Positions 39,445-42,397 of a DNA stretch of 42,397 nucleotides are shown here, in pieces. The translations under genes and the position numbers were made by a program. The DNA is from an uncultured Flavobacteriales bacterium (GTDB taxonomy: Bacteria > Bacteroidota > Bacteroidia > Flavobacteriales_D > Sanyastnellaceae). Position 1 is the first letter of the stretch. Each line of letters begins with the position of its first letter. The notes under the pieces are model-generated. The model was given only the letters and a program-made list of their open reading frames with translations. It did no database searches and had not been told where the DNA came from. The stretch spans positions 1-42,397 of the forward strand of contig CAJQMI010000103.1 in the NCBI GenBank assembly GCA_905479395.1. The letters are read 5' to 3'.

Positions 39445-39489
39445 ACCAGTGCAAAGGAAAGTCAATGGAACGCATCCTGTAAAAACCAA

Positions 39490-39519
39490 AAAAGAGCAAC
39501 CATCTCTGATTGCTCTTTT
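39490..39519. terminator. Terminator beside tRNA-fMet fragment, copy 1
   Basis: A 10-base-pair stem (39490-39499 with 39510-39519) and 10-base loop. The minus-strand side runs into TTTTTTGG, so it ends transcription leaving the tRNA fragment; it could also stop the haloperoxidase message. Confidence 0.85.
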
Positions 39520-39529
39520 ATTGTTTTCT

Positions 39530-39594
39530 TGGTTGCGGGGGCCAGACTCGAACTTACGACCTTCGGGTTATGAGCCCGACGAGCTACCAACTGC
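39530..39594 (-). pseudogene. Truncated initiator tRNA-fMet(CAT), copy 1
   Basis: On the minus strand the 65 bases match nucleotides 12-76 of bacterial initiator tRNA: three G-C pairs closing the CTCATAA anticodon loop, CCA encoded, A at position 72 as in initiators. The 5' acceptor strand and first D-stem bases (1-11) are missing, so no acceptor stem can form. This copy also has a mismatch in the T stem (39555), unlike copy 2. It cannot be a working tRNA. Confidence 0.92.
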
Positions 39595-39682
39595 AAGTCC
39601 TTGTTGGACTGTGACTTACCGTTGTTCCGTTCAAAACTGACAGATGTAGTTGAACTGTATGCTTCATTTTAGGCCCTTTACT

Positions 39683-40615
39683 CTAATGCACTGAAGGCAA
39701 ACCGTTGATTGCCCTTGCAATCATTTCAGAATATATTTCACTTCCTTTCAGATTCAGGTGTAATTCGTCACAAAACAATGTGTCTGGAAAAACACAACTT
39801 TCCGGTGTTAAGAGAAGAGGCCGAGACAATTCTAGAGACAATGAATTCATCGCATTTACATATTGGTATGCCGCTCTAGAATCTCGAACAGGCACAGGTA
39901 GAAGGTGAGTGAATTGGTCTTTTTTTTGTCTCCAAAATGAGAAATCAATTCCCATTTCCAAATCGTAATTTTTCTCAAAATCTATAAATCTCCCTCCATT
40001 GAAGTCGCTTCCATCAGCGGATGAAACTGCGAAGTCATTCCTTCTCTTGTTTTGATCCAATATCACACCCCTTTTGCTTATTACATCGCTACTCCATTGG
40101 AACCCCTCCATTACGTTGGATGGCTTATAATAGGAATGCCACGGTCGAAAATGATGAGCAAAAGCCCAAGCTTTGCTCAGCACAAACACCCGCAAACCAT
40201 AGTTTTTCAGCACCTCAAAAGACCCGAGTCGTGAGTGAGACAACAACTCAGGAACCAAGTATCCTTCTCGCGGCTGATCCAACCAAGGCGGGCCAGGTGA
40301 CATAATAATGTAGTTAGCCTCTCTTCCAATTTGTTTTGCCTCATTGAACACATACAAAGGCCCCGTTCCCGCGTGCAATCCAAAGCTGAAAAAGTCAATG
40401 CCTGATTCGACTAAGGTTTCTTCGTGAAGTCCGAAAGCAAGCGTAGAAGGTCCGATGAAAAGAACATCTGCGACGATAGAATCCAGAGGGAAAACATTGA
40501 AAGCCCCTTCATAGGAAGTTGCCATACCCACTGGTATTGGTGCATATCTGATCGCCATCAATACGACTAAGAGGATCGATGCGATCCCGATGAGACTAGC
40601 GATGAATTTTCTCAT
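39683..40615 (-). CDS. SGNH-fold acyltransferase/esterase-like membrane protein
   Basis: 310 residues. One N-terminal membrane helix (FIASLIGIASILLVVLMAI). The SGNH block I is FIGPSTLAFG with the likely nucleophile Ser 57, and block V is CDELHLN with Asp 283 and His 286, so the triad is plausible. AlgJ/AlgX/PatB/DltD-type proteins with this fold accept acyl groups from an MBOAT partner and pass them to a polysaccharide outside the membrane. The MBOAT gene lies just upstream with one base between the genes. The last 74 bases are repeated at the window's right end. The name SGNH rests on motifs only. Confidence 0.78.
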   Translation of the reverse strand: MRKFIASLIGIASILLVVLMAIRYAPIPVGMATSYEGAFNVFPLDSIVADVLFIGPSTLAFGLHEETLVESGIDFFSFGLHAGTGPLYVFNEAKQIGREANYIIMSPGPPWLDQPREGYLVPELLSHSRLGSFEVLKNYGLRVFVLSKAWAFAHHFRPWHSYYKPSNVMEGFQWSSDVISKRGVILDQNKRRNDFAVSSADGSDFNGGRFIDFEKNYDLEMGIDFSFWRQKKDQFTHLLPVPVRDSRAAYQYVNAMNSLSLELSRPLLLTPESCVFPDTLFCDELHLNLKGSEIYSEMIARAINGLPSVH

Positions 40616-40616
40616 T

Positions 40617-42032
40617 TTAAAACTCGAAATAAATAAACGTTGGAGCAGGATTGATTGTTGAGTGGATTAAAATCAACAATGCCGCGAAAACGTAAATAAA
40701 GTACCTGATAAAAGCATGATGAATTTTCACTTTTTTCAGCAAAAACCAGTCTACAAGGAGTAAGGCGATGATGTACGGGATTGGAGACCTATGTGAGTCT
40801 GGAAACCTAAGATCCTGTGCCATGCGAAGAATATAATTACTGGCATCTCCAATGTTGTCTGATCGAAAGAAAATACGGGGTATCGAACCCAACGCAAAGG
40901 TGGCTATCATTTGGAGACACTCCCTCCCTGTTGGCAACCAACGCCCTTCTCCTATGTCTTCAGAGGTGTAACGTCTATTTTTCCCTGCCAGCATTAATGG
41001 GAGAAATAAAGCCGCCTGAATGCCCCCCCAAGCAATGAATGTCCAATTTGCTCCGTGCCACAAACCACTCACCAAGAAAATAATGAACACATTGCGAATG
41101 GACATCCATTTCCCCCCGCGTGAGCCACCCAGTGGAATGTACACGTAGTCGCGGAACCAGGCACCCATTGAGATGTGCCAACGACGCCAAAACTCACCAT
41201 GATCGCGGGCGAAATATGGCATTTTAAAGTTCGTCATGAGTTGAATGCCAAAAAGCTTGGCTGTGCCGATTGCGATATCGCTATAACCCGAGAAATCTCC
41301 ATACAGCTGAAATCCAAAGTAGATGGCGCCAAGCATGAGTGTTGGTCCTGAATAACCAGCATAATTCGCAAAAATATCATTGACGTGCAAGGCACACGTA
41401 TCTGCGACCACGACCTTCTTGAACAACCCCAGCAGGATGAGTCGAAGACCTGCAACGCCCTCCTCGTATTTGAAAACTCGCTTATTCTCGAGTTGGAAGA
41501 GCAGTTTCGACGCACGCTCAATCGGGCCTGCAACGAGCTGAGGAAAGAAACTGACAAAAGCTGCGAAGTTGATGAGATTTCGAGTTGGCTTCGTATCTCC
41601 TCGGTAGACGTCAATCGAATACGATAATGTCTGAAAGGTGTAAAATGAAATCCCGACAGGCAAGATGACGTTCAAAGAAGAAACATTCGTGGAGATACCC
41701 AAAGCACTCCATGCATCCATCCAACTATCGATGAAGAAATTGGCGTACTTGAAATAACACAGAAGCCCCAAGTTCACCAAAAGAGAAAGCCCTAGCCATG
41801 CCCTCTTGGTCCGTTGTTTGGGTGACGAGGAGATCTTTAGTCCAACAAAGAAGTCAACCACAGTCGAAAACACGATAAGACCTAGAAATCTCCAATCCCA
41901 CCACCCGTAAAAGAAGTAGCTCGCTAAAAGTATGAGCGCGTTCTGTGCTTGCAGGTGACGTTTGAAGATGAACCAGTAAAGGACAAAAACAACGGACAGA
42001 AAAACCAAAAACTCAGCAGACTGAAAAAGCAT
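40617..42032 (-). CDS. MBOAT (AlgI-type) O-acyltransferase
   Basis: 471 residues with about eleven hydrophobic helices. The family start LFQSAEFLVFLSVVFVLYW, the block YGDFSGYSDIAIGTAKLFG, FWRRWHISMGAWFRDYVYIPLGGSR and the catalytic His 326 in GLWHGANW are all present. It moves an acyl (often acetyl) group from the cytoplasm to an external polysaccharide, working with an SGNH partner, here the next gene. The substrate could be alginate-like, peptidoglycan or another surface glycan; no biosynthesis genes are nearby. The pair forms a unit bounded by the repeats. Confidence 0.93.
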   Translation of the reverse strand: MLFQSAEFLVFLSVVFVLYWFIFKRHLQAQNALILLASYFFYGWWDWRFLGLIVFSTVVDFFVGLKISSSPKQRTKRAWLGLSLLVNLGLLCYFKYANFFIDSWMDAWSALGISTNVSSLNVILPVGISFYTFQTLSYSIDVYRGDTKPTRNLINFAAFVSFFPQLVAGPIERASKLLFQLENKRVFKYEEGVAGLRLILLGLFKKVVVADTCALHVNDIFANYAGYSGPTLMLGAIYFGFQLYGDFSGYSDIAIGTAKLFGIQLMTNFKMPYFARDHGEFWRRWHISMGAWFRDYVYIPLGGSRGGKWMSIRNVFIIFLVSGLWHGANWTFIAWGGIQAALFLPLMLAGKNRRYTSEDIGEGRWLPTGRECLQMIATFALGSIPRIFFRSDNIGDASNYILRMAQDLRFPDSHRSPIPYIIALLLVDWFLLKKVKIHHAFIRYFIYVFAALLILIHSTINPAPTFIYFEF

Positions 42033-42102
42033 AAGAAATTTAATTTTGAACCTAGAATTACACGAATCCTAATTCTAAAGGATGCTCTTCAACTGTGCTT
42101 TT

Positions 42103-42110
42103 CAAAAGTA
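42103..42110 (-). promoter_or_regulatory. Candidate -7 box for the MBOAT-SGNH pair
   Basis: The minus strand reads TACTTTTG, an exact TAnnTTTG. A TTTG 17 bases upstream lies in the T-run of the repeat's terminator. CAAAAG and CTTTTG arms (42103-42120) form an inverted repeat over the box that could be an operator. Confidence 0.5.
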
Positions 42111-42130
42111 CAATCTTTTGTACAAACCAA

Positions 42131-42160
42131 AAAAGAGCAACCATCTCTGATTGCTCTTTT
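42131..42160. terminator. Terminator beside tRNA-fMet fragment, copy 2
   Basis: Same 10-base-pair hairpin as at 39490-39519. It would separate transcription of a further SGNH gene to the right from the MBOAT-SGNH pair. Confidence 0.85.
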
Positions 42161-42170
42161 ATTGTTTTCT

Positions 42171-42235
42171 TGGTTGCGGGGGCCAGACTCGAACTGACGA
42201 CCTTCGGGTTATGAGCCCGACGAGCTACCAACTGC
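42171..42235 (-). pseudogene. Truncated initiator tRNA-fMet(CAT), copy 2
   Basis: The same 65-base tRNA 3' fragment as copy 1, with an intact T stem (G at 42196). The 5' eleven nucleotides are again replaced by the same unrelated spacer, so it cannot form an acceptor stem. Confidence 0.92.
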
Positions 42236-42323
42236 AAGTCCTTGTTGGACTGTGACTTACCGTTGTTCCATTCAAAACTGACAGATGTAGTTGAACTGTA
42301 TGCTTCATTTTAGGCCCTTTACT

Positions 42324-42397
42324 CTAATGCACTGAAGGCAAACCGTTGATTGCCCTTGCAATCATTTCAGAATATATTTCACTTCCTTTCAGATTCA
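42324..42397 (-). CDS. 3' end of a second SGNH-like gene (partial)
   Basis: In frame, the last 24 codons are identical to those of the SGNH gene at 39683, ending ...ARAINGLPSVH. The gene continues past the window's right end. It indicates at least one more unit of the same kind, unless the end comes from an assembly loop. Confidence 0.6.
   Translation of the reverse strand, partial: NLKGSEIYSEMIARAINGLPSVH

Follow-up and report, generated by a model that had tools for sequence, protein, structure and literature searches.

A probable integrase-less cassette at the initiator tRNA gene of an uncultured Flavobacteriales bacterium

How do two tRNA-fMet fragments, broken at the same nucleotide, come to frame a pair of putative surface-acylation genes with no recombinase between them? 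This arrangement occurs at the right end of a 42,397-nucleotide stretch of DNA (hereafter the window) from an uncultured Flavobacteriales bacterium. The window is the entire contig CAJQMI010000103.1 (G000:C103, 42397 bp) of a metagenome-assembled genome (MAG; GCA_905479395.1, hereafter G000) of 2.29 Mb in 144 contigs. An earlier examination of the letters alone (the sequence-only reading) had proposed that the two genes, labelled MBOAT and SGNH, are cargo of a small element that inserts at the initiator tRNA gene, with its integrase supplied elsewhere, and that the array might gain or lose units and so alter surface acylation. Comparison with related genomes supports this in part, for the tRNA-directed origin and the foreign cargo. 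We conclude that the unit is probably a tRNA-fMet-targeted cassette of the cis-mobilizable element (CIME) type, which kept its attachment (att) sites, lost its integrase, carries the MBOAT/SGNH pair and is arranged in tandem.

The window contains a 279-nt direct repeat, with copies at 39478-39756 and 42119-42397, a spacing of 2641 bp, that mismatch at three positions (5, 78 and 152 of the repeat). Each copy consists of a terminator and tRNA-fMet from nt 12 to its 3' end, both on the minus strand, followed by a spacer and an SGNH-like gene's 3' end. The first terminator (39482..39527) is a self-complementary match, and a similar hairpin stands beside intact tRNA-fMet in relatives; it is followed by the tRNA fragment (39531..39594, minus strand), identified by BLAST to the relatives' intact tRNA-fMet, and by the spacer (39595..39658, plus strand), which alignment and spacing suggest is an att arm and former integrase leader. 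The second copy, delimited by comparison of the repeats, with relatives supporting the terminator and alignment the arm, has its terminator at 42124..42168, tRNA fragment at 42172..42235 (both minus strand) and putative att arm at 42236..42299 (plus strand), and ends in the 3' end of a second SGNH-like gene (42324..42397, minus strand) that is cut by the contig end. The two tRNA fragments, which differ at one T-stem base, break at the identical nucleotide and join the identical spacer, and ARAGORN called no tRNA gene in the window. The sequence-only reading had reported two such copies 2641 bp apart, with the same break and spacer in both; sequence comparison bears this out, and at minimum the array comprises one complete tandem unit and part of a second.

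Between the copies, the list of open reading frames (ORFs) holds the SGNH-like gene (39683..40615, minus strand, 310 aa), the MBOAT gene (40617..42032, minus strand, 471 aa) and a 126-aa ORF overlapping inside MBOAT. We found no integrase or remnant there (best match E 0.16, chance level; none at E 1e-4). The MBOAT protein matches PF03062 (E 1.4e-25) and DltB chains in PDB (E 1.9e-25), and its match to the NCBIfam DltB model is below the cut-off (138.6 of 375 bits). It contains a WHGANW motif, which we take to be the MBOAT motif with the catalytic His, and ends in the hexapeptide FIYFEF, so that by sequence it has the MBOAT domain, the presumed catalytic His and the C-terminal Tyr hexapeptide of a paired MBOAT. 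In MBOAT-SGNH pairs, the Tyr of the C-terminal hexapeptide carries the acyl group, according to PMC12148441. The partner protein is called SGNH-like from its GPS and DELH motifs, presumably SGNH blocks; searches against Pfam and NCBIfam at E 0.001 and against PDB sequences at E 1 returned nothing for it, and a structure predicted without an alignment reached a pLDDT of 33.9. Thus, of the two original labels, MBOAT stands, and SGNH stays at the level of motifs. The likely function of the pair is acylation of an envelope polymer.

The composition of the unit is odd and its cargo is rare. G+C content is 43.9%, compared to 49.3% in the rest of the contig, and is below that of all 740 equal sliding windows. 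We searched three nested sets: 22 genomes of the genus, G000 included; 114 of the family; and 399 of the order, drawn from a larger group. For the SGNH-like protein, the family set gave no match outside G000 (113 genomes), the order set a single weak 28-residue match besides G000, and plasmids no match. These data support a foreign origin for the MBOAT/SGNH pair, as the sequence-only reading had supposed in calling it the cargo of an element.

To the left, the array is bordered by a conserved 748-aa gene (37198..39444, plus strand; DUF6851, with a weak VCPO match), which borders tRNA-fMet in relatives too and appears to be the chromosomal edge of the insertion site. The repeat was matched at E <= 0.001 in 19 of the 22 genus genomes, and for 13 of these 22 ARAGORN called the tRNA at the fMet match as intact; the remaining matches were fragments, contig-end cuts, N-masked (G001) or another Met tRNA (G007). 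In our map of the site, which covers 20 regions from 17 relatives, 12 genomes have a contig on which the left-flank gene is followed by tRNA-fMet and then era (in G001 the tRNA contains N). The names era and ispE were given from translations, by motifs that we assume to be typical. No gene lies between the left gene and the tRNA in eight genomes (G003, G004, G009, G010, G011, G013, G020 and G021), meaning no ORF >= 70 aa once ORFs overlapping the tRNA are discounted. Ten have an insert or break there (G000, G001, G002, G005, G008, G012, G014, G015, G018 and G019), and for four (G006, G007, G016 and G017) the interval was not recovered.

The inserts vary in content. G005 carries lipase-like, receptor-like and DUF4249 proteins, and G002 holds relatives of all three; G015 carries an HmuY-like protein, a TonB receptor and a T9SS-tail protein, G018 a T9SS-tail protein and G019 a CotH protein. 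G008 has a RimK-like gene, on the left side of the tRNA fragment. The gene between the left gene and the tRNA in G012, which we take to be DUF2490-like, may be ancestral rather than an insert because it adjoins the left gene in other genomes too. Two genomes display the full arrangement expected of insertion at the initiator tRNA gene. In G002, a decayed fragment, cargo, an intact tRNA-fMet and era all lie on one contig; in G005, a truncated copy and cargo lead to an intact tRNA-fMet at the contig end, and a partner contig overlapping by 127 bases runs into era. G015 has its fragment on one contig and its intact tRNA on another. These cases uphold the proposal that the initiator tRNA gene is the attachment target.

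The junction between the truncated tRNA and the spacer is itself shared. Allowing <= 2 mismatches, we found it in 4 of the 114 family genomes (G000, G005, G008 and G015), and a decayed form of it is present in G002 (73% to G005, E 1e-24). The truncated form is therefore present in 5 of the 22 genus genomes, decayed in one, rather than fixed as a single copy in all relatives, which the sequence-only reading had named among the grounds for abandoning its proposal; none of those grounds was encountered, and its expectation of the same fragment and spacer beside different cargo was borne out. Over a 49-nt spacer core, G000 is 98% identical to G008 and 88-90% to G005, G015 and the integrase locus L186 described below, compared to 74-78% (G008) and 65-74% (G005, G015) for coding neighbours, measured on local BLAST pieces. 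Such conservation would follow equally from an att arm under constraint and from recent sharing. A search of viral contigs for the junction returned 0 matches.

What does the spacer lead into when the element is less reduced? In G008, it leads into a tyrosine recombinase (PF00589, E 4.7e-10; L058, 9038-10078), with the catalytic Tyr changed to Asn in an otherwise open frame; the Tyr is kept in all six aligned relatives that reach this position. In L186 (JAALKI010000054.1), the spacer is followed by an open integrase frame with the catalytic Tyr, 94% identical to the G008 integrase, and over 162 nt its terminator, fragment and spacer have 93% identity with the copies in the window. L186 is filed under a Nitrospirae MAG and is probably mis-binned, because its terminator and tRNA match the window's genus. 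Only the first integrase residues remain after the spacer in G005 and G015. The integrase starts 63 nt after the fragment in L186 and G008; the window has an ATG at 39659, 64 nt after its fragment, followed by no integrase sequence. We read the window spacer as a kept integrase leader whose gene was lost. The ATG itself may be due to chance, because the last 15 nt before it are not conserved. A tyrosine recombinase beside a matching att core, which the sequence-only reading had proposed to look for, thus exists in G008 and L186; a search of the G000 MAG found none of its family.

Two further features of L186 and its kin stand apart from this argument. One gene past the L186 integrase lies a restriction-helicase gene (4467-7778; PADLOC REase_MTase_IIG, E 6e-84), possibly defence cargo of an element whose far end we did not find. 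Loci of the family sit in MAGs titled Euryarchaeota and Nitrospirae (L135, L138 of PBNL01, and L186 of JAALKI01), which are probably mislabelled or mis-binned contigs.

The integrase belongs to a family that habitually adjoins tRNA genes. A scan of named genome contigs found 166 relatives, of which the best 79 loci were kept, some of them near-identical to each other; 91 loci entered the tRNA-adjacency count (9 contig duplicates having been removed beforehand), 12 were dropped with the integrase N-terminus unplaced and 79 were placed. In 73 of the 79, a tRNA or fragment lies <= 160 bp upstream of the integrase start (71 of 79 by another distance rule): 24 are intact by ARAGORN, their 100% identity arising by construction because these loci themselves supplied the tRNA library, and 49 are not, a class that includes near-complete copies missed by ARAGORN. 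Six loci lack an upstream tRNA; L138 and L184 have room for one, and L150, L161, L163 and L182 have <= 81 bp. Among the targets are fMet, Met/Ile, Asn, Arg, Ala, Gly, His, Val and Pro. In an integrase tree of 73 rows, built by a quick method with no bootstrap, 17 of 18 fMet-labelled rows fall in one 19-row clade (SH-aLRT 100), two rows of which are labelled Met/Ile; within the tree, L186 is sister to L208, titled Flavobacteriales bacterium UBA7443. Viral contigs searched for the family gave 26 pattern matches, none confirmed.

The fragments suggest where the integrase would cut. Most of the 49 non-intact fragments (38) are antisense to the integrase and start at nt 5-32, 34 of them reaching the exact 3' end, and the other 11 share the integrase's sense and span nt 1 to 43-48, with positions counted along tRNAs of 68-78 nt and BLAST edges that may be a few bases off. 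Because nt 32-43, the anticodon loop and 3' stem, are common to all 49, we place the crossover there. Of ten antisense fMet fragments, five start at nt 12 at equal distance from the integrase, and the others at nt 9, 10, 13, 19 and 32; given this spread, the nt-12 break would be the end of identity between element and tRNA. The same-sense 5' halves occur in L137, L139, L145, L147, L170, L174, L175, L205, L206 (Ala), L210 (Arg) and L134 (fMet). Where the 5' half is the part displaced, the element should supply the tRNA promoter and 5' half.

Twelve relatives have both element ends and measure 3.8-7.0 kb. Three bounded elements encode a conserved 96-aa protein with a GRQKGTPNK motif (L192 7893-8183, L204 7881-8171, L181 8828-9118), the L192 copy of which had no Pfam match above the cut-off and no PHROG match. 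Among 18 same-strand fragment pairs listed, 15 have an integrase or remnant, and those without are two short pairs (77 bp) and the window. In L151, three tandem tRNA-Met copies (nt 45-75, nt 45-75 and full; 5632-5920) lie 77 bp apart just before the integrase. A second decayed array of comparable kind appears to exist in the same genus: L115 (G006:C164) has tRNA-Gly fragments at 3651-3697 and 5128-5184, and the 1.4 kb that separate them hold an integrase C-terminal remnant.

Taken together, these patterns suggest how the window's cassette could have formed. The tRNA-fMet between the 37198-39444 gene and era is probably the attachment site of small integrative elements, which carry a tyrosine integrase beside the att site. 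This integrase would cross over in or near the anticodon arm; the incoming element would bring a new tRNA 3' half and terminator, so that the essential tRNA stays intact beside era, and at the opposite end, next to the integrase, the old 3' half would persist as a fragment. In the G000 species the resident integrase would have been lost, leaving only its upstream leader, with the MBOAT/SGNH pair carried along; loss of a resident integrase reads better than an integrase-less design. Integrase action may have produced the tandem, or RecA may have done so through unequal exchange between the direct repeats, and either process could have left the sequence seen here.

Could the second copy instead be an assembly artefact or strain mixture, with a single unit in the genome? 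The MAG is fragmented into its 144 contigs, and the contig's final 127 bases, which lie inside the repeat, match copy 1 exactly. Because these last 127 bases recur, and the last 127-mer alone does so, the contig seems to stop at an assembly-graph vertex with k=127, a value we infer and that the exact 127-base overlap of the two G005 contigs at the tRNA-fMet site supports. Of the 271 127-mers between 42001 and the contig end, however, 270 occur nowhere earlier in the contig, so the path from MBOAT into the second tRNA fragment and spacer is a separate assembly path. The mismatches at positions 5, 78 and 152 also fall on both sides of the tRNA/spacer junction, and the terminator and tRNA stretch common to the relatives' intact genes (~113 bp) is shorter than 127. 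An artefact is thus rather improbable. Plain duplication and decay of a tRNA gene with no mobile element, which would draw on the general observation that tRNA pseudogenes are common, is far less probable still: four species share the break and spacer amid different neighbours, and in both L186 and G008 the spacer runs straight into an integrase. We rejected this idea on the shared spacer and the integrase in relatives.

A stronger competitor accepts the same origin and differs on present mobility. A single old insertion at tRNA-fMet could have decayed, become tandem by unequal homologous recombination between terminator/tRNA repeats, and now be immobile, a structure that requires no integrase. 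The relatives form a matching decay series, from loss of the catalytic Tyr (G008) through 5' remnants only (G005, G015) to strong decay (G002), and the same three cargo genes occupy the site in G005 and G002. Yet the SGNH-like gene occurs in 1 of 114 family genomes, so that the cargo either arrived recently or has been lost from the other genomes, and the noncoding spacer is conserved far better than its coding neighbours. We give a fixed relic a substantial chance, somewhat short of even.

Returning to the CIME-type cassette, several observations weigh against it. The G000 MAG yielded no integrase of this family, and its own three PF00589 proteins are not matched by the family's integrase; together with the clear decay in relatives, this counts against present mobility. 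The right end of G000, where an intact tRNA-fMet and era would be expected, was not assembled, so that unit count and far end are unseen; a search for era gave three distant matches only, and neither of two intact CAT tRNAs in the MAG is of fMet type. The expected far-end tRNA is therefore seen in G002 and G005 only. Of the direct repeat ACTGACAGT that precedes the integrase start, only the first copy is clear in G000; with the second degenerate and the ATG one base further, part of the arm may be missing, and the old start may have been elsewhere than at this ATG. An integrase-free RecA duplication would likewise give two nearly identical terminators, as seen here, and the cargo pair is carried by G000 alone of the genomes searched. 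Integrase-less units are also under-sampled among the named loci, because loci were fetched by their integrase.

A broader picture is more tentative, and on balance doubtful. An integrase family aimed at tRNA anticodon arms across Flavobacteriales might, through decayed members, leave short passenger cassettes whose att sites are intact and which are moved and stacked in trans by relatives' integrases. The initiator tRNA would then host a modular, recombinase-less cassette pool through which surface functions such as acylation, receptors and adhesins are exchanged. The complete L186 integrase makes trans-mobilization directly testable, and tRNA-fMet beside era offers a simple handle for tracking surface-gene gain and loss in uncultured Flavobacteriales. 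Cassettes of the window's type would escape island finders that require an integrase gene. Among the literature matches listed, we found no description of this flavobacterial integrase family at tRNA-fMet, and no title or opening of an abstract dealing with a flavobacterial tRNA-fMet array, in a search that left subscription papers mostly outside.

How does this unit compare with known systems? In the Islander collection of tRNA islands, as described in PMC4383910, island ends are likewise an intact tRNA and a displaced fragment, and crossover of the anticodon type is known. Of these hallmarks, the fragment is present in the window and the intact far-end tRNA in G002 and G005, with G000 not assembled there. 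The 5'-fragment type is a minority in Islander (159 of 3919 islands), compared to 11 loci here. Because Islander tests for an integrase gene, which relatives have and the window unit lacks, the unit would probably be filtered out. Tycheposons of marine bacteria, as described in PMC10872708 and PMC11389934, combine a tyrosine recombinase, a tRNA border and cargo, as does the family here; the window has the tRNA border, with the recombinase in relatives only, and what sets the family apart is its Flavobacteriales integrase and bounded members of 3.8-7.0 kb.

The ssrA islands of Dehalococcoides are likewise tandem and bounded by fragments of one RNA gene, and 15 of 31 lack an integration module and were suggested to be CIMEs (PMC3146451). 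Unlike the window, they involve a serine recombinase and a tmRNA target, and that paper reports no duplicate islands within a strain, whereas the window unit seems to be repeated. CIMEs proper arise by decay and accretion of integrative and conjugative elements (ICEs) or integrative and mobilizable elements (IMEs); like the window unit, they have lost their integration genes, retain att-like sites on both sides and lie in tandem at one tRNA site (PMC5704250). The window's adjoining unit, in contrast to the CIME case, appears to be a self-copy rather than a different element. At the sequence level, att-like repeats do flank two cargo genes only, and L186 and G008 point to descent from an integrase-bearing element at the same att site. 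By analogy, we would place the window unit in the same class as CIMEs, the Dehalococcoides ssrA islands and tycheposons, which are its close precedents.

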